From IMG/VR virus record IMGVR_UViG_3300031576_000067, positions 1 through 50,208 of that record: 50,208 nucleotides of DNA; one strand, given 5' to 3'. Of this stretch, positions 21,647 to 47,517 are shown piece by piece. The notes below the pieces were generated by a model, which was given only the letters and a program-made list of their open reading frames with translations, ran no database searches and was not told the DNA's origin. Within the stretch, counting starts at the first letter, position 1; each line of letters opens with the position of its first letter. The translations under genes were made by a program, and so were the position numbers. The DNA comes from a virus.

Positions 21647-21838
21647 TTATGCAGAGTCTTCACTAAGCTGACGTGCTAGAGATAACACACGATCCGCAAG
21701 GATTGGTGTCGCCCTTTTCTCCTGCAGCTTTGTTTGGCGTGCAAGCCATGTACTGGCTATTAAACCCAAAAACCCTTGTTTTTCAAGGGTTTCAGAGAAG
21801 CCACGAACATAGCCATCATATTCGGGGTTACTGGCCAT
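21647..21838 (-). CDS. Small signature-bearing protein
   Basis: 63 residues from the ATG at 21838, which overlaps the previous stop by 11 bases. A longer frame reaches upstream but would run deep into the preceding gene. It begins NPEYDGYVRGFSETLEKQGF, a clear member of the recurrent N-terminal signature family, and continues as a basic helix (TWLARQTKLQEKRATP). It consists of little more than the signature and one helix. It precedes the RNA polymerase fusion gene by 20 bases. Confidence 0.6.
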   Translation of the reverse strand: MASNPEYDGYVRGFSETLEKQGFLGLIASTWLARQTKLQEKRATPILADRVLSLARQLSEDSA

Positions 21839-22520
21839 AGTACTGTTGTGGGCCCCCAGTGTAACTATAGGGATTATACTGCGGTTGATACTGTTGCTGT
21901 GGCGGGGGGTATCCATACTGATATTGACCAGGTTGTCCACCTCCGCCGAACATCTTGCTCAGACCCCAGATGCCTAGGCCACCGGCCCCAAGAAGGCCTG
22001 CCCCCGTGAGCCACGGGTGCTTACCCGCGAGATCACCAAAACCGGCTCCTGCGAGACCTGCCAGTGCAGGCAGCTGAGCTAGCCCGTTCCACGCAGTATC
22101 AAGGCCCTTCTGCGCGCCTTCAGGAAGCATGCCCCGGAAGGCATCGCCAATGTTCTCTGCCCCTTGAAAGTTCTTTAGAAGGGGGTATTTCTCGAGCATG
22201 TCCTTTTCCGCTTGAGCAGCAGCACCGGATCCAGCTCGCGCTGTTTCAGCATCGATCACCTTACGTACAGACCCGCCAACATCCCCAGATGTCACTGCAC
22301 CTTTTACGGCGGAAACAACTGGATCTTGCTGGAGATTCTGCCACTTGTTGGTGACTTTGTCTCGAATGCCTTGGTACGCGCCAATTGGCTTATACGCAAG
22401 ATTTGCCAAAGGGCTTGTCACATTGCGAGACCACCAGCCTTCTTTTGCTAGCTTCTCAAGGCCGGCGTGAAACCCCTCTGCGAACCCTAGGTTAGAAAGG
22501 TAGTCGGGCGGATGTTTCAT
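21828..22520 (-). CDS. Signature-bearing PW/glycine-zipper protein with Gln/Tyr-rich tail
   Basis: 230 residues from the ATG at 22520, supported by GGAGG nine bases upstream. An ATG at 22553 is less likely. The N-terminus contains GFAEGFHAGLEKLAKEGWW (recurrent signature). Near residues 165-195 is KHPWLTGAGLLGAGGLGIWG, the PW + glycine zipper hydrophobic module shared with several neighbours. The C-terminus is a Gly/Tyr/Gln/Pro-rich tail (QYQYGYPPPQQQYQPQ). It overlaps the preceding gene by 29 bases. Probably a membrane-active virion protein. Confidence 0.62.
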   Translation of the reverse strand: MKHPPDYLSNLGFAEGFHAGLEKLAKEGWWSRNVTSPLANLAYKPIGAYQGIRDKVTNKWQNLQQDPVVSAVKGAVTSGDVGGSVRKVIDAETARAGSGAAAQAEKDMLEKYPLLKNFQGAENIGDAFRGMLPEGAQKGLDTAWNGLAQLPALAGLAGAGFGDLAGKHPWLTGAGLLGAGGLGIWGLSKMFGGGGQPGQYQYGYPPPQQQYQPQYNPYSYTGGPQQYYGQ

Positions 22521-23319
22521 CTTCCCAAACCTCCCCGGTCTCTGGATCAACATACTTCATTGAGAGTTGTGGCTCTTTAAAGACAGAAGGGGGGCGCTTC
22601 TCTGGCTTCCACTGAGAGCGACCGTAATTGTATGCTGCGAGAGACCCAGCGCCTAATCCTGCGCCCGCTAGAATTGCTGCGAGATTAGCCGCCCCCTGAA
22701 GCGCCCAAGGAGTCATGGACTTAATGCTGACCCCGGTAGTATCCGTTTCACCATCGGCTTCTTTTGCTAATCCCTCTAGCCAAGCATCTGCAAAGACGTC
22801 AAGTTCTTGTGTGGTATCAGCTGCGAACTTAGGAATAGCTCCCTCTTCTAGCTTTTTAAGCTTTGCCTTTAGTTTTTCGCGGCGTTCTAGCTGATCCAAA
22901 CTATTGTAAAGATTGTATGCACCCATCGCCGCCCAGGGTAAGCTAGCCATAAGCGCCATATTTCGGGTAGCTCCACCCAAAAAGGCATCAGGGTCTTTGC
23001 CGAAACCAAACTGTAGCAGTTGGTCTGTGACAGTTGCACCCTTTTCGATACTCGCTTCCTTTTCCTTTTTCTTTTTTGGCTTTGTCTTCTTTACATATAC
23101 ACTAAGCTTGCTTGGAGAGCGCAGTTCATCCTCATACCAGCTATTGTTCATGTAGTTGGAGAGGAGCCCACTACCTAAGCCTGCAGCAGAAAGCAGAGCA
23201 GCAGAGCGGAGCCAGGGGTTCATATCTGTCACCCCCCCCCAGAACCCACCCATGGACCCTGGTTGGCCCTGTTTCAGAAGACCCTGTAACTCAGTTAGTT
23301 CTTGATGTAGGTCGCCCAT
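22492..23319 (-). CDS. Two-module glycine-zipper protein with internal signature
   Basis: 275 residues from the ATG at 23319. A TTG at 23355 is the alternative. Module one has NPWLRSAALLSAAGLGSGLL (PW + glycine zipper) followed by a very basic stretch (KKTKPKKKKEKEASIEKGA). The centre holds FADAWLEGLAKEADG, an internal copy of the signature, and then TPWALQGAANLAAILAGAG, a second PW + zipper. This looks like a fusion or duplication of the signature/zipper unit. It ends with a short acidic soluble tail. Probably a multi-span membrane-active virion protein. Confidence 0.58.
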   Translation of the reverse strand: MGDLHQELTELQGLLKQGQPGSMGGFWGGVTDMNPWLRSAALLSAAGLGSGLLSNYMNNSWYEDELRSPSKLSVYVKKTKPKKKKEKEASIEKGATVTDQLLQFGFGKDPDAFLGGATRNMALMASLPWAAMGAYNLYNSLDQLERREKLKAKLKKLEEGAIPKFAADTTQELDVFADAWLEGLAKEADGETDTTGVSIKSMTPWALQGAANLAAILAGAGLGAGSLAAYNYGRSQWKPEKRPPSVFKEPQLSMKYVDPETGEVWEDETSARLPF

Positions 23320-23621
23320 TTTACCGCGATCCTCAAGTAGCCCTCTTTCGTCCAACTCTTGTCTTCACACAGCAACATCTTCTCGCCGTTTAGGATTTCC
23401 GTGGTGAGATCGGCGTACTCGTCCGTGTGGGCGGAGTCTTCCATGTAGAAGACCTTAAAGATAGCTTTCCACTTACACCCTGGGGGAAGTGAAAACATGG
23501 AGTTGGTGGTTGGCTCCATGACGCCAGGAAAGTAGTCGGGGTCTGCAGTTGCTGCCGGTGGCGCGGTTTTCGGAAAGGGAGCAGAAACAAATGGGGCTTG
23601 AAGCTCATTTTCGCCAAACAT
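23295..23621 (-). CDS. Unknown small soluble protein
   Basis: 108 residues. A Pro/Ala-rich N-terminus is followed by an alpha/beta body (KWKAIFKVFYMEDSAHTDEY, then EGYLRIAVKWATYIKN). It shares neither the signature nor the zipper of its neighbours, and I do not recognise a fold. The start overlaps the stop of the preceding gene (TAATG), and its end overlaps the next gene by 25 bases, so it is translationally linked to them. Confidence 0.5.
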   Translation of the reverse strand: MFGENELQAPFVSAPFPKTAPPAATADPDYFPGVMEPTTNSMFSLPPGCKWKAIFKVFYMEDSAHTDEYADLTTEILNGEKMLLCEDKSWTKEGYLRIAVKWATYIKN

Positions 23622-23989
23622 TAGTAAGTCCGTCCTCGGGTCTTTTCTTCGAGTTGCTTTTGCTTCTCAAGATCAGTGAAATACTTCTGTACCTCCAGCT
23701 GATTCTTAAGCATATCCTCAAAGGGCTTTTCTTGCTCACGACGCATGATATCCCGAGCTTCTGCATCGGATTTAATCCATGCACCACCTAGCCCAAGACC
23801 AGCACCTAACCCCGTCCCGCCTGCGAGGGCCCATAAAGGCATTCCAGCCAGAATACCTAGACCTTTGCCGGCAACATCCCACCAACTCCCCGCCTTCTTC
23901 TCCATCAGAAGCCCCGGGATATCCCTCTTGTCATACCCCGCTACCGCAAGAGTATCTAGGAACCCATCCTTGAATGCCTGTGTGCTCAT
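23621..23989 (-). CDS. Signature-bearing PW/glycine-zipper protein
   Basis: 122 residues. The N-terminus reads AFKDGFLDTLAVAGYDKRDI, then LLMEKKAG, the longer form of the recurrent signature. Then comes GMPLWALAGGTGLGAGLGLG, a PLW variant of the PW + glycine zipper segment, and a charged C-terminal helix (EEKTRGRTY). Composition and layout match the small membrane-active family of this window. It starts immediately before the stop of the neighbouring signature gene. Confidence 0.6.
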   Translation of the reverse strand: MSTQAFKDGFLDTLAVAGYDKRDIPGLLMEKKAGSWWDVAGKGLGILAGMPLWALAGGTGLGAGLGLGGAWIKSDAEARDIMRREQEKPFEDMLKNQLEVQKYFTDLEKQKQLEEKTRGRTY

Positions 23990-24634
23990 TTAGAAGCTCG
24001 CTTTGTACGGACTGTACATCTCTTGCTCTGGCGTCCGCCGGAGATCAACGATGCGTGGCTCTAGAGATAGAAGCCGCCCACCATGCTGATATCCAAGGTA
24101 CCCGCCGAAGCCTAAAGCACCCAAAGAAATGAGTTTTTGAACAAGAGGAGACATCTGGCTCTTGTCCATGTTGTTCATAAATAAATAGTTGTTGAGTCCG
24201 GAGAGGGCGACTGCGCCTAACCCCGCACCAAGCAACTTACCTAAGCTGGATTCGCCCGGAGGGGAAATCTTGGGACGTTGCTCAAGCTTCCAAATTAGCC
24301 GATTCTTTTCTTCCGATGACAGGTTCGGATCTGAGTGAATCGACTGCATCACCTGTAGGAAAGATCGAAAGTTATCTGCCGGTAGTAGGCTCGGGGCATT
24401 CCCGAATGGATCAGTACCAAACTCCCCTGGGCTGAAGTCCCGCATATCAGCTTGATCGTCAAAAGCTGTTTTCTGCAGTGTCTCCGCAAACCCTTTTATG
24501 AAGGCCTTCTTTTCAGAAGACTCTACCTTCTCCGGAAGCTTATCCATGTCAGGCGTGTGCTTAGCCCAGCGCTTCGCCACTCGGGGGAGGTTCGAGAACA
24601 TCCACTTCCTCTGCGAGTCGCTCTGGAATGGCAT
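23990..24634 (-). CDS. Protein with two N-terminal motifs (SxxQRKWM and recurrent signature) and glycine zipper
   Basis: 214 residues. The start PFQSDSQRKWMFSNLP is a known short motif at the N-terminus of diverse phage proteins (pattern FxSxxQRRWMxxxxP). It runs into KKAFIKGFAETLQKTAF, the recurrent signature. After a charged region the segment LLGAGLGAVALSGLNNYLF and later ISLGALGFGGYLGY form two hydrophobic Gly-rich stretches. The gene overlaps the previous one by 74 bases, but its opening motif makes the start credible. It seems to carry two modular N-terminal tags in series. Confidence 0.65.
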   Translation of the reverse strand: MPFQSDSQRKWMFSNLPRVAKRWAKHTPDMDKLPEKVESSEKKAFIKGFAETLQKTAFDDQADMRDFSPGEFGTDPFGNAPSLLPADNFRSFLQVMQSIHSDPNLSSEEKNRLIWKLEQRPKISPPGESSLGKLLGAGLGAVALSGLNNYLFMNNMDKSQMSPLVQKLISLGALGFGGYLGYQHGGRLLSLEPRIVDLRRTPEQEMYSPYKASF

Positions 24635-24908
24635 CTTTCTTCTTCCGACGGGTGCGAGCTACTTTTTCAACTACTACTTTTTCACGAGGCGGGTAACAAG
24701 GCAGTGTTCCCAGGTTCCGTTCCCAGTCAAACTCAATGCGAATCCAGCCTTTCTCTAAAAGCTGAATACATTCCGGAGAAGCCAGGTAAGCATGTGAGAC
24801 GAGTAGCTTGCCTCCTGCAGGAAGGGTTTCGAGTGCTCCGAAGAGACCCGAGTGAACCCCTAGAGCGAACTTGACGCGACTTTCCAGATGATGCCTATGT
24901 TCGGTCAT
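24561..24908 (-). CDS. Unknown small basic protein
   Basis: 115 residues from the ATG at 24908, whose first base is the last base of the ligase stop (TAATG). It begins EHRHHLESRVKFALGVHSGL and has an alpha/beta body (PAGGKLLVSHAYLASPECIQ), then a basic region (RTRRKKKDAIPERLAEE). No family was recognised. Its tight coupling to the DNA ligase fusion hints at a related DNA-processing role, but that is context only. Confidence 0.5.
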   Translation of the reverse strand: MTEHRHHLESRVKFALGVHSGLFGALETLPAGGKLLVSHAYLASPECIQLLEKGWIRIEFDWERNLGTLPCYPPREKVVVEKVARTRRKKKDAIPERLAEEVDVLEPPPSGEALG

Positions 24909-27118
24909 TAGCGTGTCCACGTAACCCACGGCTTGCGGTTCTTCTGGAAATACGACATGATGTTCCCCGTGTTGTTCTGAAGTACTAGGTACTCTCGCGT
25001 ATGCGGATGGAAGTACGCTTCCGTTCCCACGCGTTTATGCGGAACAGGGATCAGCCCTTCACGGGAAGTAGCTAACTCACGCGCGCGCTCCAGATACTCC
25101 TTACGGGTGAGCCCCATCTCTACCGCATGCTTCCTTGCATGCTCCCGAGCGTTTTTCATGGATGTCCATTGAGCTTGTTGAAGAGACTTAGCTACGTCTT
25201 CTCCTAACGCCTCAGCAGACTTGAGGATTTTGCCTTTATCGAGATGCCACTGACCAGTGAATGCAGGTGCTCGTAGGGCCCCTGAGCTGTGCTGCCCCTG
25301 TGCAGTTACTTTGGCGACTCGACCTTTATAGCTCTGTGGGTTGTCCCACATGTCTTGGCGAAGTTCTTCAGTTAGTCCCGTACCAACCCGACCGACAATT
25401 TTACCTCGTGGGGTCAGGGAGTACTCAAACCCTCCTGCGTGAGAGCCTTCGAATTTGCCGCTGCCTTCATAGACATCACGCACGTAGACGTCATAGTCTG
25501 GACGGAGCTTCAATTTGACGGGCGGGCCATTGCCCTGCAGGTTCCACGCGATAACGCCCTCGGCAGTAGCGGGATGAGTTCCACTCTTGATTTTTTCGAA
25601 AAGCTGCTGCTTCTCTTCCGGAGAAATTGCGTAGTCCGGTACCGTGAACATCCGCGGAGTTGCTTTGTCAATCTCCTCGAGCATTTTCAGCTTTTCGGAG
25701 TACGGCAAATCACGTACATCACGGCCTTTGTATTTTATCACATCGAAAAGTGCATTGCGAAGCTCCACACCCTCCTCCGTCTGCTTCTGCAGGGAGTTAG
25801 CTGTAGTGGCGTTTAAGATGCCTGAGAGCTGATGCGCGGGAACTACTCGGCCGGTTTCTCGATTGATTCCGTAAAGCTCTCCTCGGACGATTGTTCCTTC
25901 AAGCTCTTTGGGGGTCTGCAGTTCATCAACACCTGGAATCTTGAATGTGTGATTAATAAGCCGATCAGAGCGAGCGCTTGGCCGATACGAAAATACCTGC
26001 GGATGGCGTACTTTAGATAGAGGATCTTTCTTAGGAAACTCAGTAATAGTATGAGCGCCGTCAATCTTAGCGCTGAGGAGATATTCAGGAGAGAGAAAGT
26101 TGGAGAGTTGGTCAGGCTTAGCGTCTTTATACGTGGGTTTTTCACTAGGAATCTCCCATTTCTTCTCGCGCGTTGGCGTGATGTTATACAACAGCCAATC
26201 TTCCGGCTTGCCGAAGTTCTTTGGACGAAAGAGCATGAACTCCTCCGGATCCTTTTTATTCGTCAAAACGAAGCGCATTTTATCTGGTTTAGATTCGAGG
26301 ATCCGGACATTGCCAGAGTCGGCGATCGAAACCGTTCCTTTCCCATACCCCTCGAGGATTGGACCTTTGAAGGTCATGTACTCAGGGGTATGTGTAGGTT
26401 GTACCACTGCAAGATGCTTCTTGCCAGGCTCGGGGAGTCCCTTACGTACGGCCCACGAATACGCGTGCTCACCATCAGATAGACGCAGGTCGAAGTGCTT
26501 CCCCGCCCGCTCTGCTTCGTGCTGATGCAGAGTGAAGTCCCAAGTGGAAGGCCCCTCGAGAATTGGGAGAGGCTTCTTGGAGCGGGACGTAGGAATGCCT
26601 GGAGCGAATTCTTCAGCGAGAGCAGAGAGCTTGGTGAGGTCCAGCTGGGCACGGCGAGGAGAAGCTTCAGCACTCTTCCCCTCCTCACTAATCATCTCTA
26701 ACTCATCCCCGACCTCTACCGGGATCCTGTCTAGTGTTCCTGCGGTCATCTCCAAGACATACGCAGCGCCTGGACAAGCTGCATTCTTGGTCCCTGCCAA
26801 GAGGAGCTCCTCAACCCCCACGACGGCCATGTCCTCATCGAGGAACAGAACGTCTAAGGGGAAGATCATGCCAATCATGTGGATCGAGTCCACTCCAGGC
26901 ATAAGGAGACCAAAGCCTTCAGGTGGTGGCTCACGTTCGAGCATCCCCTGAGTCTTCTCCTCTTTCGTTAGGGCAAGCTCAAGCTCAGTCACGAGCATCT
27001 GTCCACTAGGAAGATGTCGGATTCCTGAACTTGGAACAGCGGCGTTCTTAGACAACAACCCCAACATCACTGTCGGGGTTGCTTTAAGATGCCCTAGTAG
27101 TGCGTCTATCGCATCCAT
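24908..27118 (-). CDS. DUF192 + LigD-type 3'-phosphoesterase + ATP-dependent DNA ligase fusion
   Basis: 736 residues, three recognisable parts. Residues about 42-142 match DUF192 (GMLEREPPPEGFGLLMP, then IGMIFPLDVLFLDEDMAVVG). Residues about 190-312 match the LigD phosphoesterase domain: GKHFDLRL (His208), YSWAVRKGLPEPG and EGYGKGTVSIAD. Residues about 345-635 form an ATP-dependent ligase: KIDG with Lys351 as the likely adenylated residue, then VRGELYG, then EGVIAW (Glu520), VKLKLRP (motif V), and an OB-like domain with GRVGTG and LRAPAF. A C-terminal extension (640-736) ends VLQNNTGNIMSYF. Expected role: trimming 3' ends and sealing DNA breaks. DUF192 function is unknown. Confidence 0.85.
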   Translation of the reverse strand: MDAIDALLGHLKATPTVMLGLLSKNAAVPSSGIRHLPSGQMLVTELELALTKEEKTQGMLEREPPPEGFGLLMPGVDSIHMIGMIFPLDVLFLDEDMAVVGVEELLLAGTKNAACPGAAYVLEMTAGTLDRIPVEVGDELEMISEEGKSAEASPRRAQLDLTKLSALAEEFAPGIPTSRSKKPLPILEGPSTWDFTLHQHEAERAGKHFDLRLSDGEHAYSWAVRKGLPEPGKKHLAVVQPTHTPEYMTFKGPILEGYGKGTVSIADSGNVRILESKPDKMRFVLTNKKDPEEFMLFRPKNFGKPEDWLLYNITPTREKKWEIPSEKPTYKDAKPDQLSNFLSPEYLLSAKIDGAHTITEFPKKDPLSKVRHPQVFSYRPSARSDRLINHTFKIPGVDELQTPKELEGTIVRGELYGINRETGRVVPAHQLSGILNATTANSLQKQTEEGVELRNALFDVIKYKGRDVRDLPYSEKLKMLEEIDKATPRMFTVPDYAISPEEKQQLFEKIKSGTHPATAEGVIAWNLQGNGPPVKLKLRPDYDVYVRDVYEGSGKFEGSHAGGFEYSLTPRGKIVGRVGTGLTEELRQDMWDNPQSYKGRVAKVTAQGQHSSGALRAPAFTGQWHLDKGKILKSAEALGEDVAKSLQQAQWTSMKNAREHARKHAVEMGLTRKEYLERARELATSREGLIPVPHKRVGTEAYFHPHTREYLVLQNNTGNIMSYFQKNRKPWVTWTR

Positions 27119-36791: not shown

Positions 36792-37079
36792 CTAAATCGC
36801 GTACTGATCGGTCGTCCCGACATTTGTCCGGTTCGGGTCCCCAGGAAGGCCATAGGCGTCTCGCTCGATTACCTTGGTCGATGCCGTCTGCCATGGTTGT
36901 TTCCCCTTATCCCGCGAGATCTCTTCAGCATCTTCGATAGTCTTATCTAATGCCGGCTCCGGGGGTGGAGCAAGCGCGATCTTTAACATGTCAAGCATCA
37001 CATCGTCGTTAGTGATACCCATATCATAACACTGTTTGACGAATGCAGTTAAATACTGGTGCTTCTTTGTGCGGTTCAC
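36792..37079 (-). CDS. Signature-bearing small protein
   Basis: 95 residues. The N-terminus HQYLTAFVKQCYDMGITNDD then LDMLKIALAP is the long form of the recurrent signature (F-x-K-Q-C, then G-I, then K-I-A). The tail is acidic and soluble with no zipper (DAEEISRDKGKQPWQTASTK). It overlaps the stop of the upstream signature gene by four bases (ATGA type). Confidence 0.6.
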   Translation of the reverse strand: MNRTKKHQYLTAFVKQCYDMGITNDDVMLDMLKIALAPPPEPALDKTIEDAEEISRDKGKQPWQTASTKVIERDAYGLPGDPNRTNVGTTDQYAI

Positions 37080-37588
37080 TTGGCAACTCCTCCTGCAGCC
37101 CCGTTCTTTGCTGCGGTTGAGAGAGCACTTTCCGCCTTGCGCAAGTCATAGCCTGCGGAAGGATCTGTGAAGTACTTGCTGAGCCCAGCTAGGGCGGGTT
37201 GTCCGAAGCGCTCTCCTAGGTAGCCTAAGCCACCTGCGCCGACCATCGCTCCTAGCCACGGTGCATTAAACAGCTTCTTCCCTAGCATCCCACCAAGCAT
37301 ACCTCCGAGGCCTACTCCTGCACCCATTCCTGTGAAGCGCTTGGGGAGGTCAACGATGCCTGTATCAAAGAAGTCACGTACACTGGCCATCTCAAGGGGC
37401 CGCTTACGGAAGTGGTCGGTACCTTCTAGGGGGTTGACAGCAAGAGCTTGCTTGGTCATCGGGGAGAAGTCCCCGGAAATCTCTGCAATCGCCATTGTCC
37501 ATGCGATGCGGTCAGGGTTAATAACCCCCCACGCGGCACATTTCTCAATGAACCCTAAACGAGCGGCGTGGAGGGAAATGTCACTCAT
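37076..37588 (-). CDS. Signature-bearing PW/glycine-zipper protein
   Basis: 170 residues from the ATG at 37588. An upstream GTG at 37609 is the alternative. The opening ISLHAARLGFIEKCAAWGVI matches the long signature, with further helix (PDRIAWTMAIAEIS). The zipper region includes GAGVGLGGMLGGMLGKKLF, then NAPWLGAMVGAGGLGYLGER, a clear PW module. The C-terminus is helical (LRKAESALSTAAKNGAAGG). It follows the family layout. Confidence 0.62.
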   Translation of the reverse strand: MSDISLHAARLGFIEKCAAWGVINPDRIAWTMAIAEISGDFSPMTKQALAVNPLEGTDHFRKRPLEMASVRDFFDTGIVDLPKRFTGMGAGVGLGGMLGGMLGKKLFNAPWLGAMVGAGGLGYLGERFGQPALAGLSKYFTDPSAGYDLRKAESALSTAAKNGAAGGVAK

Positions 37589-37598
37589 GCTCGCGGCC

Positions 37599-38135
37599 TT
37601 AGTAGGCACCCTGCATCTGGTAGTACTGAGCCATCGCTGGATCCATCATCATTGAGGGGTCCATACCTGGGTCTTGAATACCGTACATGGATAGGTCCGG
37701 ATAGGATTGCATCACCTCCTCAGGAGGTTGTACGAGGCCGCCATCCGGGCTTTGGCCTCCAAGAAGACCGAGGCGATGGGCCCCATAAAGCCCTGCCCCT
37801 GTGAGTCCAGCACCAGCGAGCGCGCTACCGCCCATGGCTGTCATGGGGTTTTCCTGCGCGTATCCTCGCAAGGCATCCATTGCTTGGCTCCACATCCCCT
37901 CCTGTGCTTGCTTGTTAAGACCAGCATGGTCGAGAAGCGCGAAGAAGCCATCTCGATATCCTCGAGCCTCAGCTGTCTTGCGCATAAACTGCGTGTCTTG
38001 CATCTTGTCTACCCCTTGTGTAGAAGACTTCTCATCCTTGGGGGACTGCTTTGCAATCTTTTTGTAGTCATAGTCAGCATCACGAGATGCAGGCATCTGC
38101 AGTGAAGCTGCTAGCTTAAGTAGTTGTTCCCGCAT
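37599..38135 (-). CDS. Signature-bearing zipper protein with Met/Pro-rich tail
   Basis: 178 residues. The N-terminus REQLLKLAASLQMPA has the short LLxLA variant. A charged region (DADYDYKKIAKQSPKDE) precedes the full signature at about residues 59-78: GYRDGFFALLDHAGLNKQAQ. Then comes ENPMTAMGGSALAGAGLTGA (NP-type glycine zipper) and a tail rich in Met, Asp and Pro (DPGMDPSMMMDPAMAQYYQM). It therefore appears to have a leader placed ahead of the signature. Confidence 0.6.
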   Translation of the reverse strand: MREQLLKLAASLQMPASRDADYDYKKIAKQSPKDEKSSTQGVDKMQDTQFMRKTAEARGYRDGFFALLDHAGLNKQAQEGMWSQAMDALRGYAQENPMTAMGGSALAGAGLTGAGLYGAHRLGLLGGQSPDGGLVQPPEEVMQSYPDLSMYGIQDPGMDPSMMMDPAMAQYYQMQGAY

Positions 38136-38505: not shown

Positions 38506-38796
38506 TTACCTGTTATGAGCTAAAAGCATCTTTCTGCGTAGTTCCTGTTGTTCCTTGAGTGCCTTCATGGCTCTCTCGCGTTCGATGAGTTGATCTCCCA
38601 GATCTGCTAGCTGAGGGAGTTGTCCTGTGAGTGCTGGGGCGGCGAAGCTCAGGGCAAACCCCAGAGGACCGTTCCCGTACATATTCTGCATCTTGTGCTG
38701 AGACAGCTCGTATGCTGCGCGCTTCACGAAGGACTCTGAACAGCCTACAGCCTGTAGTGCTCCGCAGAACCCCTCTAGATACGCTTGATCCTCCAT
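38506..38796 (-). CDS. Signature-bearing small protein
   Basis: 96 residues. The N-terminus EDQAYLEGFCGALQAVGCSE then FVKRAAYELS is the long signature. A short hydrophobic stretch (GPLGFALSFAAPALTG) is followed by a basic helix (QLIERERAMKALKEQQELRR). It is among the shortest complete members of the family. A gap of about 50 bases follows before the next gene, with no terminator that I can see. Confidence 0.62.
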   Translation of the reverse strand: MEDQAYLEGFCGALQAVGCSESFVKRAAYELSQHKMQNMYGNGPLGFALSFAAPALTGQLPQLADLGDQLIERERAMKALKEQQELRRKMLLAHNR

Positions 38797-39261: not shown

Positions 39262-41019
39262 TTACCGCCACATCGGACCAGAGGGGCGACCTTGTGGAGT
39301 AAGGGAATATGGTCCTACATCTCCTTCGGTTGGTGGGTTGACGAGCAAGGAAGGGCGGAACGGCATACTGTTCTGCTGCTGAAACACGGAAGGGGTAAGC
39401 ATGCGTGCGGGAGGCCGCTCGTTCATCGGTACGTCGGTGTTCCCGAAGGACATCTGTGACTTCTCAAGAGGAGAAGCTGGCTGCATGCTCTGACGGGTCA
39501 TGAATGGGCCTAGGGACATGCCAGGGTCCATGCTGGGGTTCTGAGAAGAAGGCTGGAACATGCCAGGGTCTTGGCTTTGGGGCATCCCCATATCTGCTTC
39601 CCACTGCTTACGTGCGAAGCTCCCTGCAGGATCGTCTTCGCCCCTCCGATACTCCATCGTTTGCATCCCACCTGCACTTCTAGGCTTCCGCCCTTGGGCC
39701 AGCATTTTTCGAAGCTCTGCCATCCACCCCTGTTGCTGTCCAAGGGGGAGTTGTCCGGCTCCACGCATAGGCGCAGGAAGATTAGCTGGACTGGCTTGAG
39801 CAGAGGGTGCCTGGGGTGCGCCTTGGGCTAACTTGAGCATAGCCCGATACAGGGACGATTGCTTCCGCATCTGTGGAGCTTGGGCGACGCTCGAGGGTGC
39901 TGCGGCAACCGTTGCTGGAGCTCGTGCGGGTGCTTGCTCTTGCACACCTTTTTGTCCCCAAGGTGTTGCGTTTTCACGCATCTGGCCCCACATCTTTTGA
40001 TTCTCTGCTTCTTGTGATGACATCTGTTGCTGGGCCTGCGTAGCTTGCTGAGAGCCTGGGGCGTATTCCTGACGCTGTCCTTGTGGCGTGTACTCAACCA
40101 TTGAAGGTTGAATCTTCGGGTTTACTTTAGCAAACTCAGCCATCCGCTTAGGATCATGCTGGTTCATGAGGATATATGCTTGTTCGTCTTCAGAAAGCCC
40201 AGGCTGACGTGCTGTTTGTGACCAGTCCTGCTTGTATCGGGGCTGTTGCGCAACCTGCTGCTGGTATTGCTGGGAAACCGCTTCTTGGGTACCGGGGGCT
40301 GCCTGTCCTTGAATAGGTTTGGCAAGATTGGGGTCTTCCTTAGTCAACCCTGTCATCAAGGCGGCACCCTGATATGTAGCTGGATCTGCTGCGATGCTAC
40401 CAACTTGTGCGATAGCACCTAAAGGCTTGTCCATATACGGATCGGTTTGGGCCCACCACTTATCCACCCCTGTTTTGCCTCGTCCAGCTGCTGCAGACTG
40501 TTCTGTTAGACGGCCAAGATAAGGATTCTTGGTGTCGTTAAACAGTGCATGTGCTGCGCCTACCGCAAGGTTCTGCCGAGGATCCTCATTACGGGGATCA
40601 ATCTCGTTGAACATGTTGTAGGCAGTTATTCCTGCAGTAACTGGTGCGAATGCTTTGCTTCCGGCGCTCCATACAGGTGCAGCTTGCGCAAGAAGAGGTG
40701 CGGCCACACGGCCTACTGCAGCAGAAGCTCGAGGAGCTAACTGCTGAACCCCCTGCAATACCCTTTGTCCCGTACTAACCCCCCCAGGGGTAGCCCGAGC
40801 AAGAGGTGCTGCACCTCTCACTAGGCCTTTCGCCCCTTGGTACATTTTCTTTCCCTTCTGGACAGCCTTGTTTGCAGCTTCTGCGCGGTCCCAAACGTCT
40901 AAGGCGTCCCCCCCTGCAGCCATTGCATTCGAATCAAACTCCGACTCCTGATCCTGTACTGGAGGGACGGCCCTGAGTTGAGCTAGCTTGAGAAGCTGAA
41001 GGATATCGAAGGGTGTCAT
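39262..41019 (-). CDS. Ala/Gln/Pro-rich virion protein related to the next upstream gene
   Basis: 585 residues. The N-terminus PFDILQLLKLAQLRAVPPVQ has the LLKLA variant of the signature. A helical Gly/Ala-rich region follows (KMYQGAKGLVRGAAPLARAT, then AGITAYNMFNEIDPRNEDPR), then a long Gln/Pro/Met-rich disordered region (SQQYQQQVAQQPRYKQDWSQ). The opening and composition resemble the protein at 41024-41992, so the two are probably paralogues. Likely internal or head-associated, since it directly follows the portal module. Confidence 0.52.
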   Translation of the reverse strand: MTPFDILQLLKLAQLRAVPPVQDQESEFDSNAMAAGGDALDVWDRAEAANKAVQKGKKMYQGAKGLVRGAAPLARATPGGVSTGQRVLQGVQQLAPRASAAVGRVAAPLLAQAAPVWSAGSKAFAPVTAGITAYNMFNEIDPRNEDPRQNLAVGAAHALFNDTKNPYLGRLTEQSAAAGRGKTGVDKWWAQTDPYMDKPLGAIAQVGSIAADPATYQGAALMTGLTKEDPNLAKPIQGQAAPGTQEAVSQQYQQQVAQQPRYKQDWSQTARQPGLSEDEQAYILMNQHDPKRMAEFAKVNPKIQPSMVEYTPQGQRQEYAPGSQQATQAQQQMSSQEAENQKMWGQMRENATPWGQKGVQEQAPARAPATVAAAPSSVAQAPQMRKQSSLYRAMLKLAQGAPQAPSAQASPANLPAPMRGAGQLPLGQQQGWMAELRKMLAQGRKPRSAGGMQTMEYRRGEDDPAGSFARKQWEADMGMPQSQDPGMFQPSSQNPSMDPGMSLGPFMTRQSMQPASPLEKSQMSFGNTDVPMNERPPARMLTPSVFQQQNSMPFRPSLLVNPPTEGDVGPYSLTPQGRPSGPMWR

Positions 41020-41023
41020 GGCG

Positions 41024-41992
41024 TTAGCGGAACATTAGGGGTTGTTGTGGTGACGGCTGCTGAGCTACTTGTTGCTGTTGGGGTGCACCCCGACCGCGTT
41101 GAAGCATTTGTTCAACAGCCCGCGGATCGTATTGCTTTCCGGTTTCCCATGGAGGAAGTGGATCGGGCCCTTCTTGGGAAATACGCATCTGCTGCAAATC
41201 ATTCCAGTGAGAAAGGTCTTCGTTAGTGTATGTCCCGCGGGCCATACGATCATTGTAGTTATTCTCGTCATAGTTCAGGTCTTGCTCGAAGGTGTACTCC
41301 CCCCGAGGGGCAGGTCTTTTCCAGTACTCCTGCTGTGCTTGAGTAGGTCCGGACGCGGTATCTGCAATCCTCGTACTCGCGGCATCTATCCCCGTTGACA
41401 CAGTCTGTGGAATATTTGCTATATTTCCTACCATGCCTAGAACGTCGCCGGAATTATAAGCCTGTTGAAACTCTCGTATATCTCTACGTGCATTTGGATT
41501 TACACCGGTTCGACCAGTAGCAGCCTGGTGAAAACCTAAACCCATATGTTTGGACGGATCGGTGGCCATTTGCAGCTGACCCCCACGTCCCCGCTGTACG
41601 GGCATATTGGCGACTGCTGCATCAACTCCTGCCATAACCGGTATAGATAATACTTTTCCCAGTCCTTTACCTGCCATCCACATGCCACGTCCGAGCGTGG
41701 GCAAACCTGCCCGGACAAGAGGAGGCGCAGCAGCTCGAGCGGTTTGCGCAGCAGCTGCCCCAAGCCGTCCCAGGGGAGGTACTACTTTAGCAACCCAAGG
41801 AGCTGCTTTTGCAGCTACTCCCGCCAACATTTTTCCCGTTTTTGCCTCATGCAGAGCGTGTTGTACCTCCCCTGCTGCCTCAGGTATTTGAGCGAATAAG
41901 TTAGGTTCTTCGGCCGGCATACCAGGAGGCACAACCTGAGCCAACTTCACCAAGGCCCGCAGCAGTAGCGCGCGGTCGAACTCTTTAGCCAT
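41024..41992 (-). CDS. Ala/Pro-rich virion protein, probable paralogue of the 585-residue neighbour
   Basis: 322 residues. The start AKEFDRALLLRALVKLAQVV shares the LLxxLxKLAQ pattern and VPP with its neighbour. A helical Ala-rich region with Pro breaks follows (AAAAQTARAAAPPLVRAGLP), then a glycine-rich basic region and an acidic, Asn/Tyr-rich stretch (FEQDLNYDENNYNDRMARGT), ending Gln-rich. The ATG overlaps the portal stop (TAATG), so it is translated with the portal. Confidence 0.52.
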   Translation of the reverse strand: MAKEFDRALLLRALVKLAQVVPPGMPAEEPNLFAQIPEAAGEVQHALHEAKTGKMLAGVAAKAAPWVAKVVPPLGRLGAAAAQTARAAAPPLVRAGLPTLGRGMWMAGKGLGKVLSIPVMAGVDAAVANMPVQRGRGGQLQMATDPSKHMGLGFHQAATGRTGVNPNARRDIREFQQAYNSGDVLGMVGNIANIPQTVSTGIDAASTRIADTASGPTQAQQEYWKRPAPRGEYTFEQDLNYDENNYNDRMARGTYTNEDLSHWNDLQQMRISQEGPDPLPPWETGKQYDPRAVEQMLQRGRGAPQQQQVAQQPSPQQPLMFR

Positions 41993-43761
41993 TACATTAC
42001 TCCTGCAGGTTGTCCGGGAGGCTGTAAGCCTCCACCAGTTACGCCACCTTGACCAGCGGCGAAGAGCCCTTGCTGCATTGCGTCTCGCCCCGCTTGGCTA
42101 TTTGCTTGGCCCCGGAAGCGGTCCATGTACATCTTCACAAGGGCATACATGGACTCATCCTGTTGGGCAATCATCTGCATCTGACTACGTCGCTGTCCAT
42201 CGTCTGGGATGGACAAGAGCTGTTGCGCGGTTTGCTGTGCTTGAGTCTGCAGGTCGAAGATAGTGCCGCTTCCTGCCCCGCCTTGAGCACCTTGTGCTTG
42301 GGCCTGGGAAGTAGCCTCTTCTTGAGCCTTGGTTTGAATCTCTTGAGCGATCTGTTGCTCCTCGATCCGCTTCTTGAGCTCATCCTTGAAGTCGAGACCC
42401 CACTGGGACAACATGGTGCCCGAAGAGATCTGCTGTGCAGCGGAGAGCTGCATGATGACCTGACGCTTCTCAATGTCATCTGCCAGAGTGACCGGCGTGA
42501 AGTCAACCTCTTGATCTTCCCAGTCAAAGTACTGGGCTGAGCGATCGGCTATCCATTGAAGGAGGTCATCATTGCTTTCATGAAGGTCACGCCACATGTT
42601 CTCGAACAGACGGAGTGCTGCAGGCATTGCTTGAATAGACAGGGTGCCATAAAACAGCTCTGCGGGGTATCCAAGTGCGTTAAGAATCTCTTCGTTAGTC
42701 TGTTTGATGAGAGGAGAAGTATCTAAAGACTTGCCTTCGGCTCCCATTGCTTCGTATCCGACAGGAATCGGGGAGACCTGAACATGGGCAGGGTCCCGAC
42801 GATGCAGCTTAACCATTTCTTGCATCTTGTTGAGGAAGGTCCCCATTGCGATGAAGTGAGTCGGATCATTGTTTGCTGAGGATCCCTGCGGGAAGAGCAC
42901 CCGGAAAGGAATGATATAGTCGAAGGCGATAGCCTCGTTGGCTCGCCGAAGGATAGCTGTGTACCAGTACAAGGTGAACACTGTAAGACAAGGCGGGAGG
43001 CCCCAGTCGCGAGATACACCTGCCAGAGTTGACAATGTCCGGTGGAAGACCTGTCCGCGGTTGAACTTGAACATCTTCTTCTGCTGTACAGCCTGCAGAA
43101 TCGCCATCGGTGTGCTATTGATGTAGAACTGGTCGCCTTCCTGGATCCGCTTGACGAAGTCTTCGGGAATCTTCCAGTAGTACTCCATCTCGCCTGAGAT
43201 AGGGTGACTCTTGATGTCCATCTGGTGGGGGCTCCACCGGATGATCTTTACGCGCGTTAGATCGCGACTACGCTTGTCGCGTACCTCGATCTTCCCAGAG
43301 TAGCCACAAGGACACTTTGCATGGAAGTCTCCCGTTCCTGACGTGTACTTGTAGTCGACATCATCAATGGGTCGCTCGAGCTTACACTGCGTGCAAACCC
43401 CAAAGCGATCAAAGGGGAAGTGCATGCTGTTGAAGGTATTACCATAGACGAGCAAGTCGGTACTGCTCTCGATCGTCCGACTCTTGACGTGAAGATGCTC
43501 CTCGAGAAGCTCCTTGTACTTCTCGGTGGACTGCGTGGGCTCACCCTTATAAGCAATCTCTGTGATGCCATAGCGGACAATGCGATCGGTTGCCGACTTG
43601 TACATCGTGTTGCGGAGGTACATGAACTCCGCCCACTTCAATGCATCCCGAATCTCCTGTGGGACGTACTGAGAAGAGATGTCAAAAAACGGGTGGGGAA
43701 ATACGTGCCCGGCTTTTTCGATCAGCGTCTGGTTAAGAATGCTGCTGCTACTGATGGACAT
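41992..43761 (-). CDS. Portal protein (putative)
   Basis: 589 residues. The layout fits phage portal proteins: a helical N-terminus, a beta/alpha middle with KIIRWSPHQMDIKSHPISGE, then ALGYPAELFYGTLSIQAMPA (the typical region after the portal crown), and a Gln/Gly-rich C-terminus. A cysteine cluster (CTQCK near residue 123, then CPCGYSGKIEV near 150) looks like an inserted zinc ribbon. The N-terminus contains ILNQTLIEKAG, resembling the signature. It is followed at once by two virion-like genes. Identity by pattern and context; no homology search was possible. Confidence 0.72.
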   Translation of the reverse strand: MSISSSSILNQTLIEKAGHVFPHPFFDISSQYVPQEIRDALKWAEFMYLRNTMYKSATDRIVRYGITEIAYKGEPTQSTEKYKELLEEHLHVKSRTIESSTDLLVYGNTFNSMHFPFDRFGVCTQCKLERPIDDVDYKYTSGTGDFHAKCPCGYSGKIEVRDKRSRDLTRVKIIRWSPHQMDIKSHPISGEMEYYWKIPEDFVKRIQEGDQFYINSTPMAILQAVQQKKMFKFNRGQVFHRTLSTLAGVSRDWGLPPCLTVFTLYWYTAILRRANEAIAFDYIIPFRVLFPQGSSANNDPTHFIAMGTFLNKMQEMVKLHRRDPAHVQVSPIPVGYEAMGAEGKSLDTSPLIKQTNEEILNALGYPAELFYGTLSIQAMPAALRLFENMWRDLHESNDDLLQWIADRSAQYFDWEDQEVDFTPVTLADDIEKRQVIMQLSAAQQISSGTMLSQWGLDFKDELKKRIEEQQIAQEIQTKAQEEATSQAQAQGAQGGAGSGTIFDLQTQAQQTAQQLLSIPDDGQRRSQMQMIAQQDESMYALVKMYMDRFRGQANSQAGRDAMQQGLFAAGQGGVTGGGLQPPGQPAGVM

Positions 43762-44374: not shown

Positions 44375-44794
44375 TTATGCTCCTCCTATGCGACCCCCAG
44401 CTACTGGCACATATCCTGGTCGACGAGGATCTGGGCGACCTGCTGCACTGCCGTCCCCACCATATCCTGGTCCGCCTGCACGCCTGTCTCTATCTGCTTG
44501 CATAGCCTCTTCTCGATATTTATATGTTAGTGGAATGCGTCCGTTTCTTAGATTTTCTGGTCGATTGGTGAAAGCTTGAAGTTCAGGACTAATTACTAGA
44601 GGATCTTCTGCAAGCGGTTGCCTACCCATATAGTTACTAGTACCCCCCATTGCCCCGAACAGCTTCGACTCTAACTGCCGTCCAGTTTGCTGAGCATAGT
44701 TAACGATCGGGTTGGGGTTCGGAGGGATAGGCCCTTGAGCTGCCTTTAGCAGTACCTCATTGAACCCGTCGAGAAAGCCTTGTTGGTCGATCAT
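44375..44794 (-). CDS. Signature-bearing Gly/Pro-rich protein
   Basis: 139 residues. It opens DQQGFLDGFNEVLLKAAQGP, one of the cleanest copies of the short signature. The rest is largely disordered, rich in Asn, Arg, Pro and Gly (NPNPIVNYAQQTGRQLESKL and AGGPGYGGDGSAAGRPDPRR), with no hydrophobic segment. The stop of the upstream gene overlaps its ATG. A cargo-type, signature-plus-linker protein. Confidence 0.6.
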   Translation of the reverse strand: MIDQQGFLDGFNEVLLKAAQGPIPPNPNPIVNYAQQTGRQLESKLFGAMGGTSNYMGRQPLAEDPLVISPELQAFTNRPENLRNGRIPLTYKYREEAMQADRDRRAGGPGYGGDGSAAGRPDPRRPGYVPVAGGRIGGA

Positions 44795-45102: not shown

Positions 45103-45333
45103 TTAGCCTTCCCACGAGTCGCAGACAAACTCGCGCTTAGCTTCAAAGTCATACATTGTGCACTTCCCCTGACCGTAATAACGGCATGTCCCGCAAGACT
45201 TGCTGGCGCTTGGAGAAGGCCCATAGTTTGGGGCTTTGGAAGAAGCCATGGCTTCGGCTGCCATCTTGAACAGCGCGGGCTCTAGCCCAAAACGCCGACA
45301 GAATGACAGATACTCAGGTGAGTATGTGGCCAT
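45103..45333 (-). CDS. Cys-cluster protein with signature-like N-terminus
   Basis: 76 residues. The N-terminus EYLSFCRRFGLEPALFKMAA is a variant of the long signature. The C-terminus carries four cysteines with order CxxC...C...C (SCGTCRYYGQGKC, then FVCDSW), a metal- or cluster-binding pattern seen in small phage proteins. It is therefore a signature protein with a metal-binding cargo domain. The metal cannot be told from sequence. Confidence 0.62.
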   Translation of the reverse strand: MATYSPEYLSFCRRFGLEPALFKMAAEAMASSKAPNYGPSPSASKSCGTCRYYGQGKCTMYDFEAKREFVCDSWEG

Positions 45334-45335
45334 GC

Positions 45336-45704
45336 TTACCGGCCGAAGCGCAAGGGAAACCGAAAGAAGGCTTCCTTGGCTTGCTCAGTAAGCATAGGCT
45401 CAACGCCCTGTAGCTCTTGAGTGGCCGCGAAGTCCTCATCGTTCTCTTGCACTGCTTCATCAGAGTCCATGACGGGGGTTGCTGCGACCTCCCCGTCTTC
45501 AGGGCACGTGGACCCATCATCGGCCATTGCCCCGATGTCCTCGGTAGGATCGGCAGACATCGCTGCGGCTACCTCTGCGGGTGCGACCACATCGTCTTCC
45601 ATGGCGCGCTTAAAGAGCGCCTGGACGACTGATGCATCAACTACCCCAAGGCTAGCGCACTTCTCGACGAAGCCTTCCCAAATCGCTTCTAGATTCTGAC
45701 CCAT
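45336..45704 (-). CDS. Signature-bearing acidic protein
   Basis: 122 residues from the ATG at 45704, one base after the upstream stop and with GGAGG upstream. A GTG at 45722 is the alternative. It opens NLEAIWEGFVEKCASLGVVD then VVQALFKRAM, the long signature. The rest is acidic and disordered (EDIGAMADDGSTCPEDGEVA), ending with a short helix (LTEQAKEAFFRFPLRFGR). It lacks the zipper. Confidence 0.6.
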   Translation of the reverse strand: MGQNLEAIWEGFVEKCASLGVVDASVVQALFKRAMEDDVVAPAEVAAAMSADPTEDIGAMADDGSTCPEDGEVAATPVMDSDEAVQENDEDFAATQELQGVEPMLTEQAKEAFFRFPLRFGR

Positions 45705-45705
45705 G

Positions 45706-46287
45706 TTAGTACTGTCCTCCACCCTGTTGCATGCGCTGCATCATCAACATCTCTTGCATGGCTTGGCGCATCTCTTCCATGTTTACCTGTTGATCTTTAC
45801 GAGTTTGTTCTGCAGCTACTGCGTCCGCACGTGAGAGATCGTCGTAGGCGAGGGATGCGAGAGATCCTGGTCCTAGCACAGCTCCACCTAGGAGACCGCC
45901 GATGCCTGCCCCGAGGAGTCCACCTCCCGGACCACCCTTGAGCCCCCCAATAGCTCCACCCAGGCCTGCTCCGCCCAAAACGTTAGCACCCATAGTTAGC
46001 CAAGGGTGACGAGTAGGAAGGGACAGTTTGCTCTCATCTAGGCCTAGCTCTTGATACTTCTTTTTGGCTGCAGCGATGTTGCTTGGTGCGCCATAGAGAG
46101 AGGCAAGAGGGAGAGTGGCTAGGGTGCCCCGCATCATCTGTGTCTCCCAAGGGAGCGACGAAGCGCGTCCTGCGGCTCCACCACCTAGGATCAGGGGGAA
46201 GTCCATATCGTCGAACTGGGCTTCCTTGGTAAGTCCTGCTGCCTGCATAACGGCGTTCCAGCCGTCCTTGAATCCAGGGTGAGGCAT
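45706..46287 (-). CDS. Signature-bearing PW/glycine-zipper protein
   Basis: 193 residues. It opens PHPGFKDGWNAVMQAAGLTK then EAQ, the long signature. The centre has RHPWLTMGANVLGGAGLGGA followed by GGLLGAGIGGLLGGAVLGPG, a PW + double glycine zipper. The C-terminus is helical and Met/Gln-rich (MEEMRQAMQEMLMMQRMQQG). A very clear member of the signature-plus-zipper group. Confidence 0.66.
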   Translation of the reverse strand: MPHPGFKDGWNAVMQAAGLTKEAQFDDMDFPLILGGGAAGRASSLPWETQMMRGTLATLPLASLYGAPSNIAAAKKKYQELGLDESKLSLPTRHPWLTMGANVLGGAGLGGAIGGLKGGPGGGLLGAGIGGLLGGAVLGPGSLASLAYDDLSRADAVAAEQTRKDQQVNMEEMRQAMQEMLMMQRMQQGGGQY

Positions 46288-46289
46288 CT

Positions 46290-46886
46290 TTATTTCGCCT
46301 TTTTGGGTTTCTTGGGCTTAGCCACTGGTTTGGCCTTCGGGGGCTTCTTTACTGGAGGAGGCTTTGGTGTTCCTCCGGCATATCCAGAAATGCTAGGTCC
46401 GGCCAGATCATCTTCTGCGTCCATTCTTTGAAGAAGGGCCTGGTAAGCCGGATTTGTATCGGGATCCCAACCCATATTTACGCTATTTGGTCCCCGTGCT
46501 AAAGATCCATATCCTTGCTCTCGAGCGTATTGGTCCAACCCCCATTGTTGGATGGCCAGTTCTTCCTGTTCTTCTCTGGTTAAGAGGCTTTGGTCGTAGT
46601 CCCTATCTGACTCCGGAATCTCTTCATATAAAGGATATGTTTTATTCATCCAAGAAAGTACATCCCCTTCCCCCTTTGACTTCCCCATCTGATACCCTCC
46701 GACTCCCCCGACTATTCCCCCCCCGGCTAACCCGCCAAGAGCTGGGAGCACCCATCCCGGGAGACCCCCAAACTGAGCACACTTGTAGAGCAGCTCAGTC
46801 GTTTGTGTAGGGTTAAGGCCCAGTGAGGAGCAAGCAATATGCCACCCCTCGAGCGCGCCCCGCTGATCGGCCGAAAGCTTAAGCAT
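46290..46886 (-). CDS. Signature-bearing protein with glycine zipper and Lys-rich tail
   Basis: 198 residues. The N-terminus QRGALEGWHIACSSLGLNPT then TELLYKCAQFGG is the long signature. LPGWVLPALGGLAGGGIVGG is a GW-type zipper. A soluble, acidic middle follows (YPLYEEIPESDRDYDQSLLT) and the end is strongly basic (KPPPVKKPPKAKPVAKPKKP), which could bind DNA. It is unusual in the set for its basic C-terminus. Confidence 0.62.
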   Translation of the reverse strand: MLKLSADQRGALEGWHIACSSLGLNPTQTTELLYKCAQFGGLPGWVLPALGGLAGGGIVGGVGGYQMGKSKGEGDVLSWMNKTYPLYEEIPESDRDYDQSLLTREEQEELAIQQWGLDQYAREQGYGSLARGPNSVNMGWDPDTNPAYQALLQRMDAEDDLAGPSISGYAGGTPKPPPVKKPPKAKPVAKPKKPKKAK

Positions 46887-46895
46887 CTTGTTATC

Positions 46896-47267
46896 CTAAG
46901 AGATATTTTCGGCGGATAGCCGATGAGGGTAGTTCTTGTCCACGGGACCCTTGAACATCTTCTTCTTCTGGGTCGCCTCTAGCTGTTGCATATCATCTTG
47001 CATATTGTTCTTAGGTGAGGCCACTTGAGGTTGGTTGACCATCTGGGTAGGTGAACCCGGCTGCATAGGTAAGCCCAGCTGTGGAGGCGCAGGGGCTCCG
47101 TTCTGAGGAAGAGTGGGGAGTTGAGCTGCTTGCTGATTCACAAAGCCTTGCATAGGCAACGACATTTGTGCAAGCTTTTGCAAAAATCCCTCTAGAAACA
47201 AAGAATGGCATCTCGATGCATGCTTCGAGAGCCTTTCACATAGCTCAAACCCGGGATCATGCAGCAT
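46896..47267 (-). CDS. Signature-bearing Gln/Pro-rich protein
   Basis: 123 residues. After a Cys/His-containing start (DPGFELCERLSKHASRCHSL) comes FLEGFLQKLAQMSLP, the short signature placed at about residues 24-38. The rest is disordered and rich in Gln, Pro, Met and Asn (APAPPQLGLPMQPGSPTQMV), with a basic end. It overlaps the upstream gene by 11 bases. Confidence 0.56.
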   Translation of the reverse strand: MLHDPGFELCERLSKHASRCHSLFLEGFLQKLAQMSLPMQGFVNQQAAQLPTLPQNGAPAPPQLGLPMQPGSPTQMVNQPQVASPKNNMQDDMQQLEATQKKKMFKGPVDKNYPHRLSAENIS

Positions 47268-47517
47268 GTGCGTACTCTGGGGGCGGTCGAGGCCCGTGGA
47301 CTACAGAACCATAGACATCGAGCTTATCCAGATCGAGTTCCCAAGGAAAGTCCTGGTAAAGAGGCTCAGCGTACACAGCCGCTTCAACGTGATCGATCAC
47401 GTCGGAAGGCTGCAGGTCTGCCTCCCTGCAAGCTGAGGAGAAGCCCTGGAGGAAGCCAAGAACCTTTAGGGACTCGTTGAGGTGTCCCTCAGCGATGGTT
47501 TCGATGAAAGTGTTCAT
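47257..47517 (-). CDS. Signature-bearing small acidic protein
   Basis: 86 residues. It has a leader (NTFIETIAEGHLNESLKVL), then GFLQGFSSACREADLQPSDV, the long signature, and an acidic soluble tail (QDFPWELDLDKLDVYGSVVH). The ATG overlaps the stop of the previous gene (TAATG). There is no membrane segment. Role unknown beyond family membership. Confidence 0.56.
   Translation of the reverse strand: MNTFIETIAEGHLNESLKVLGFLQGFSSACREADLQPSDVIDHVEAAVYAEPLYQDFPWELDLDKLDVYGSVVHGPRPPPEYAHAA

Follow-up and report, generated by a model that had tools for sequence, protein, structure and literature searches.

The capsid-targeting sequences of bacteriophage T4 are short N-terminal propeptides borne by otherwise unrelated internal proteins (IPI, IPII, IPIII and Alt), in which an aromatic targeting part is followed by a protease consensus that also occurs in the capsid protein, the scaffold and the protease. 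Within this 10-residue tag, residues 4 and 7 serve targeting and residues 8 and 10 processing (PMC9026906), and IPII and IPIII share their first eleven residues (MKTYQEFIAEA) before they diverge. We analyse here a recurrent N-terminal signature encoded in the entire 50,208-base IMG/VR virus record IMGVR_UViG_3300031576_000067 (the window, to which all positions refer). A similar pair of parts recurs there on proteins whose location in the head is presumed: an aromatic element, and a putative protease site made of a hydrophobic residue, any residue, lysine, any residue and alanine (phi-x-K-x-A, or K-x-A site). The window is a fragment of a tailed phage with nearly all its genes on the minus strand, and it encodes a portal, a predicted prohead protease, a predicted HK97-fold capsid protein, a multisubunit RNA polymerase, a SNF2-type helicase and a ligase. 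Among cultured phages, Salmonella phage Arash and three phages of Vibrio are its nearest relatives (about 30-48% protein identity).

By analogy, the window tag would correspond to a T4-type capsid-targeting sequence in its working principle, with an N-terminal peptide shared between proteins and a consensus common to capsid, scaffold and protease; the protease-scaffold-capsid gene order is also the same, and the fold of the window protease matches that of gp21. We do not class the window tag as a T4 capsid-targeting sequence by descent, the window having phi-x-K-x-A where T4 has [LI]-x-E, and we found no evidence of sequence homology between the two tags. More than 20 genes in the 50 kb of the window, including genes for enzymes, carry a K-x-A tag or site, which is more cargoes than in T4.

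In the giant phages phiKZ and SPN3US, which like the window phage possess a multisubunit RNA polymerase, proteins of the head and those for ejection carry an N-terminal propeptide where the prohead protease trims them, and sites are repeated within propeptides (PMC5694885, PMC10052503). Their cleavage occurs after Glu (A/S-x-E) and their propeptides mostly exceed 100 residues, whereas the window has K-x-A and a short head; a short head common to many small proteins is not reported in PMC5694885 or PMC10052503. In phage P1, a reporter is brought into the head by the N-terminal 30 residues of DarB, a head protein of 250 kDa, while no sequence common to the Dar proteins was found (PMC9024508) and no cleavage consensus is known for them; the window has both motif parts. 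The sequence-only reading that drew attention to the signature knew of no described system for it, but T4 capsid-targeting sequences and the DarB N-terminus follow such a logic (PMC9026906, PMC9024508).

Herpesvirus sites are cut between an Ala and a following Ser or Thr, and assemblin, the herpesvirus protease, is freed from its scaffold tail at a domain-end site, a second site lying near the C-terminus (PMC4498786). The window protease belongs to the same fold class and likewise has domain-end and C-terminal sites. In contrast with the window form, herpesvirus sites have no fixed Lys two residues before Ala, and no sequence similarity was detected. The likeness of K-x-A to them is put forward as a resemblance and not as a test of descent. 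We know of no N-terminal leader site in assemblin. Encapsulin cargo-loading peptides were rejected as a counterpart: they are C-terminal and uncleaved, whereas the window tags are N-terminal and the shell comes from a phage with portal and protease genes. Our search of the open-access literature found no described K-x-A head-protease site.

A two-part motif at the N-termini of window proteins

The K-x-A site was scored as [LIMVF].K.A and the aromatic element as aromatic-xx-[G/A]-aromatic (aromatic-GF). In a blind count of gapped residue triples over the first 80 residues of minus-strand open reading frames (ORFs), L.K.A ranked first (26 occurrences for 2.55 expected), F..GF second (8 for 0.35) and K.AQ third (10 for 0.95). 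Among 59 curated genes, 35 contain the K-x-A site within their first 70 residues, against a mean of 6.6 and a maximum of 14 in 300 shuffles; 17 contain the aromatic element (4.6 in shuffles), and 11 contain both at most 30 residues apart (0.18 in shuffles, maximum 2). Antisense ORFs (n=169) yielded a K-x-A site in four cases and both elements in none, and counts are near zero in residues 81-150 of the same 59 proteins. The strict two-part pattern marks 10 tagged genes in the window genome, for 0.10 expected. Comparison with shuffled controls, which had been proposed as a check, thus came out in favour of the signature (35 against 6.6 for the K-x-A site, 11 against 0.18 for both elements). These counts confirm that the recurrent motif is real and has two parts. 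The second aromatic residue lies about 4, 9, 14 or 18 residues upstream of the K-x-A site, and because this gap varies, the two elements are separable.

The genes concerned outside the head module are the following (residue numbers in brackets).

15397..16128, minus: Pro/Gly-rich protein, LEKRA (17); outside the sequence-only list
21647..21940, minus: YVRGF...LEKQG protein; aromatic element, imperfect site
21828..22553, minus: tagged FAEGF...LEKLA (24-36); body glycine-rich, hydrophobic
22492..23355, minus: internal FADAW...LAKEA (188-200), plus sites IEKGA and IPKFA
23621..23989, minus: tagged FKDGF...MEKKA (6-33); body glycine-rich, hydrophobic
23990..24634, minus: tagged FIKGF...LQKTA (45-57)
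24908..27118, minus: DUF192-LigD_N-DNA ligase fusion, LSKNA (22)
31469..33487, minus: MRKQA at the start, internal FTAGF...ITKQA (177-194)
33490..34977, minus: SNF2-type helicase, YQDGF...LLKQA (14-26) in an N-terminal extension
35016..35234, minus: tagged N-terminus FQEAF...LVKVA; body one frame away, 34943-35110
35314..35628, minus: tagged N-terminus FWEGF...LVKAA; body one frame away, 35238-35498
35638..36144, minus: tagged VFEGFAEQCMRRGITKQA...LWKQA; body glycine-rich
36792..37079, minus: tagged YLTAF...MLKIA
37076..37609, minus: IEKCA (21) and MTKQA (51); body glycine-rich
37599..38135, minus: tagged YRDGF...LNKQA (60-77), three sites upstream
38506..38796, minus: tagged YLEGF...FVKRA
39262..41019, minus: LLKLA (9), MLKLA (394)
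41024..41992, minus: LVKLA (14)
44375..44794, minus: tagged FLDGF...LLKAA
44791..45099, minus: tagged FAEGF...MPKEA...LLKLA
45103..45333, minus: small Cys-rich protein, LFKMA (21)
45336..45722, minus: tagged IWEGFVEKCASLGVVDASVVQALFKRA
45706..46287, minus: tagged FKDGW...LTKEA; body glycine-rich
46290..46886, minus: tagged LEGWHIACSSLG...LYKCA; body glycine-rich
46896..47267, minus: tagged LSKHA...FLEGFLQKLA
47257..47517, minus: FLQGF, no K-x-A site
47662..47901, minus: small protein, LVKSA (12) and LRKAA (33); outside the sequence-only list

The signature described by the sequence-only reading therefore stands above shuffles and antisense ORFs, except that two of its genes, 21647 (LEKQG) and 47257, lack the K-x-A site. 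The internal copies that it names in 22492 and 31469 are confirmed. Two further entries, 34943 and 35238, carry no tag and are the glycine-rich C-terminal frames of genes whose tagged N-termini lie at 35016-35234 and 35314-35628. The list was also incomplete: it missed the capsid protein, the protease and scaffold-like proteins, as well as the ligase (24908) and genes 15397, 39262, 41024 and 47662, all of which have the site.

The two split genes are neighbours (34943-35234 and 35238-35628), each spread over two frames of the same direction with its glycine-rich body out of frame; assembly error, decay and frameshifting are candidate causes for both. The fusion at 24908-27118 is unusual in joining DUF192, a LigD 3'-phosphoesterase and an ATP-dependent DNA ligase. 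The N-terminal extension that carries the tag in the window helicase is absent from the Arash homologue, and is shorter and devoid of the aromatic element in two related genomes (G001 and G002).

The K-x-A site in head proteins and among relatives

The K-x-A site is also present in the head module, whose genes are given here with the portal gene.

1008..1907, minus: major capsid protein, predicted HK97 fold; N-terminal helix 8-20, then LTKQA (23-27)
2378..2719, minus: small head-module protein, LEKSA (23)
2728..4125, minus: scaffold-like protein between the protease and capsid genes; six phi-x-K-x-A sites for 0.98 expected
4165..5616, minus: predicted prohead protease, 483 residues; PHROG head maturation protease
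5583..6632, minus: head-core protein, LEKQA (20), ILKLA (44)
7008..8666, minus: head-core protein, homologue of Arash gp220; eight sites for 1.37 expected
41992..43761, minus: portal protein (PHROG portal), homologues in Arash, Vibrio phage D69, G001 and G002; N-terminal K-x-A site not clear

A motif restricted to small proteins is thus rejected, and the occurrence of one site in the capsid protein (1008), the protease (4165) and scaffold-like proteins (2728, 7008, 5583 and 2378) changes the interpretation of the motif.

The order protease (4165), scaffold-like protein (2728), capsid protein (1008) on the minus strand corresponds to the order 21-22-23 of T4. The protease is 45-48% identical to Arash gp222 and to its homologue in Vibrio phage D69, and has K-x-A sites before the folded domain (LEKTA, 40-44), at the domain end (LQKVA, 223-227) and near the C-terminus (LYKVA, 455-459). 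In its AlphaFold2 (AF2) model, residues up to about 45 form a disordered leader and residues 46-230 a domain, mostly with a predicted local distance difference test score (pLDDT) of 90-98, so that the folded part is flanked by the first two sites. A plain Foldseek search with this domain gave weak E-values and no match at E 0.001; in a second look with VIA-align, T4 gp21 (5jbl) was the best match (Z 10.7 over 128 residues), followed by herpesvirus proteases (assemblins, Z up to 9.7). The His and Ser expected of the active site, H105 and S156, are invariant in an alignment of 48 homologues, and D208 is a candidate third residue. The modelled structure, read with these matches, argues for a prohead protease of the T4 gp21 / herpesvirus assemblin fold.

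In the same alignment, a K-x-A site precedes the protease domain in 48 of 48 proteins, stands at the domain end in 47 of 48 and lies at most 70 residues from the C-terminus in 39 of 48; 27 sites fall inside domains versus 261 in tails. In the proteases of the 80 IMG/VR loci described below, the leaders vary freely save for the site just before the domain, and the first residue of the site is hydrophobic in 70 of 77 cases. The capsid protein behaves similarly: its K25 and A27 are invariant in 45 homologues, among 14 invariant columns, and its site lies between a first, short helix at 8-20 and the next at 24-42. The protein is 37% identical to Arash gp226, annotated as major capsid protein, its model (pLDDT 90.6) matches HK97 and encapsulin shells at Z of about 14-17, and an NCBIfam HK97-fold model matches it below its cut-off, which together point to an HK97-fold major capsid protein. 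The first site of the 7008 protein aligns with Arash and D69.

The site is in excess in the head core of the window (21 for 4.7 expected) and in small cargo-like genes (31 for 6.4), with no excess in the RNA polymerase (3 for 4) or in fibre genes (1 for 1.45). A blind scan of 266 Arash ORFs gave the same picture, with 38 sites for 5.4 expected in the head module, 17 for 14.7 in tail modules and 36 for 42 in non-structural ORFs. The head module contains four of the five Arash ORFs in which the excess is greatest, gp242 being the other; four of these five appear by name in the virion table of PMC10585845, found in virions, and the fifth, at 149568, is probably gp225 or gp225.1 of that table. Sites are likewise concentrated in the head modules of D69 and G002, while G001 has no total excess (22 for 23). 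The known T4 prohead-protease consensus, [LI]-x-E-[AGS], counted likewise in T4 proteins, occurs 21 times for 5.8 expected in head proteins and 4 times for 3.9 in tail, portal and terminase, and phi-x-K-x-A has no clear excess in T4 head proteins (6 for 5.2). An established cleavage consensus thus gives the same head-limited statistics, which fits K-x-A as a prohead-protease site.

Aligning four proteases led us to 214 relatives in IMG/VR viral contigs, of which 80 loci were kept. Up to 3 kb upstream of the protease these loci contain 567 K-x-A sites for 105 expected, compared with 17 for 15 more than 8 kb downstream and 34 for 31 on the other strand; density thus falls from about five times the expectation near the protease to expectation in the latter two sets. 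Drawn from 129 multi-site proteins, a logo of 894 sites reads [LMFIV]-x-K-x-A-[SAE] and little beyond, information being confined, as in protease sites, to the stretch from the hydrophobic residue through the residue after Ala. The motif is not general to every relative of the protease: mycobacteriophage I3 and Gordonia phage CherryTomatoes, which have distant homologues, show at most a weak K-x-A excess. The specificity thus appears to belong to the clade of the window phage.

The tag is distributed differently from the site. Arash and D69 have homologous capsid, protease, portal and polymerases (and helicase, in Arash) and the same head-module signature as the window, but few separate tagged small proteins, which in Arash lack the aromatic-GF head. 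The strict two-part tag is found in no gene or one gene in most relatives, and on three small proteins in G012 and two in G014. A looser version occurs in G003, where AYxxGxxxA heads give 10 matches for 1.6 expected; some ten small proteins of this related phage fragment (L116-L122) share a recurrent N-terminal head of the fragment's own, about A-[YF]-xx-G-xxx-A, close to a K-x-A. Among the relatives fetched, no homologues were found for the bodies of the small tagged proteins of the window. From the spread of the site across the clade, the rarity of the strict tag and the absence of homologous bodies, we take the site to be old and shared throughout the clade, and the set of tagged cargo proteins appears to have expanded within one lineage.

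Other searches were less productive: those of viral contigs with the portal and the helicase gave few matches, and Pfam and PHROG scans of ten window proteins each returned weak, uninformative matches only, including one to phrog_37896 that does not recur in relatives. In Arash, gp95, gp97 and gp100 (OQ632216.1 54867-58971), whose genes lie a long way from the head module, have a K-x-A close to the N-terminus and occur in the virion; they are likely ejected cargo. Elsewhere in the window, a single frame (16188-21626) encodes RNA polymerase beta joined to the start of beta'; what appears to be an insertion in it contains a LAGLIDADG domain (residues 1015-1071) and is a probable intein. The remainder of beta' (12270-14165) adjoins a LAGLIDADG endonuclease gene (11582). 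A long glycine-rich protein (27532-29652, Pfam Gly_rich_2), probably a fibre, has no excess of K-x-A sites, and tRNA-Val (49200-49275) and tRNA-Ser (49559-49648) lie at the right end of the window.

A proposed targeting propeptide and rival readings

We think it quite probable that the recurrent head is a capsid-targeting propeptide composed of an aromatic docking helix and a prohead-protease site. The aromatic-xx-[G/A]-aromatic amphipathic segment would dock the protein on the scaffold or on the inner face of the prohead, and [LIMFV]-x-K-x-A, 4 to about 20 residues further on, would most likely be cut after Ala by the protease encoded at 4165-5616. As the capsid protein has the same site immediately ahead of its conserved start, the protease has it on both sides of its domain and the scaffold has many copies, one protease may mature the whole head. 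The tag appears to have been placed on many unrelated proteins (the helicase, glycine-rich and Cys-rich small proteins), the ligase carrying the site; tagged proteins would enter the head together with the DNA, undergo trimming and probably be carried into the host. The glycine-rich hydrophobic stretches of several tagged bodies might, as a guess, act on the host membrane upon ejection.

The proposal that the signature is a virion-packaging or docking tag is partly borne out, in that the K-x-A part sits on unrelated bodies, is confined to head-module and small cargo-like genes and shows no excess in tail, fibre, RNA polymerase or non-structural genes, in the window and in Arash; it needs amending in that K-x-A is best read as a protease site, the likely targeting part being the aromatic-GF helix.

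Several points weigh against the propeptide. Two tagged-looking genes (21647 and 47257) lack K-x-A, and the aromatic-GF part, strong in the window genome, is rare in most relatives. The Arash helicase gp217 is found in virions, as are polymerases gp206 and gp216 (PMC10585845), although gp217 has no such tag, so that the tag is not the sole way in. Cleavage at K-x-A is an inference; the Arash virion proteome paper makes no mention of cleavage and its text indicates no deposited spectra, and its table is without N-terminal data, its coverage column being unusable for this purpose (100% with two unique peptides in places). Lastly, the window phage is a 50-kb fragment known from metagenome sequence alone.

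Among the alternatives, the one that survives best holds that meaning attaches to the K-x-A processing site alone and that the aromatic-GF element is an ordinary amphipathic N-terminal helix, targeting depending on protein bodies. The weaker enrichment of aromatic-GF taken alone (17 against 4.6), its variable distance from the site and the arrival of the Arash helicase in virions without it would all agree with this, but both elements occur jointly far beyond expectation (11 against 0.18) and never in antisense ORFs, G012 and G014 carry the aromatic-GF tag on other small proteins, and the small-protein bodies have no homologues in the relatives fetched. We regard this alternative as possible, if doubtful.

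It is unlikely that phi-x-K-x-A only docks, binding scaffold or capsid protein and remaining uncut on the mature protein. Many copies in scaffold-like proteins and single copies on cargo would suit a multivalent binding motif; however, its invariance is just as complete in the capsid protein, copies at fixed positions flank the protease domain on either side, logo information ends one residue past Ala, and the T4 cleavage motif yields the same statistics. Slightly less credible again is a paralogous family of small genes diverged past recognition, with a common N-terminal domain that has its own function (membrane insertion, for example). Such a family could explain the glycine-rich hydrophobic stretches in many bodies and the tandem arrangement at 35-38 kb and 44-47.5 kb, but not the same head on the helicase, the site in the ligase, Cys-rich and disordered bodies, or a site common to capsid protein and protease. 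Finally, the matches could be put down to chance or to the L, K and A content of short helical N-termini, as the shortness of the motif and the alanine- and lysine-rich proteins might suggest; this is refuted by four controls (shuffled residues, antisense ORFs, tail genes and T4 head proteins), none of which reproduces the motif excess.

Beyond the propeptide itself, we lean, by a small measure, towards the broader view that a hitherto undescribed prohead-protease specificity, hydrophobic-x-Lys-x-Ala, with Ala preceding the cut as in herpesviruses where T4 and phiKZ have Glu, extends across a large clade whose phages, mostly uncultured, have multisubunit RNA polymerases. In the lineage of the window it would be coupled to a transferable aromatic-GF targeting helix moved onto about 20 unrelated proteins, including an enzyme, making the packaged and delivered proteome largely readable from sequence.

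Most proteins of such phages lack a known function. A site that marks head proteins would make packaged, and probably injected, proteins predictable from sequence, which is a long-standing gap for giant and uncultured phages. The candidate new protease specificity, with Ala before the cut, would be shared in kind with herpesvirus assemblins and would bear on the common origin of maturation in tailed phages and herpesviruses. If the tag suffices for packaging, it would also provide a new address label for phage protein delivery.

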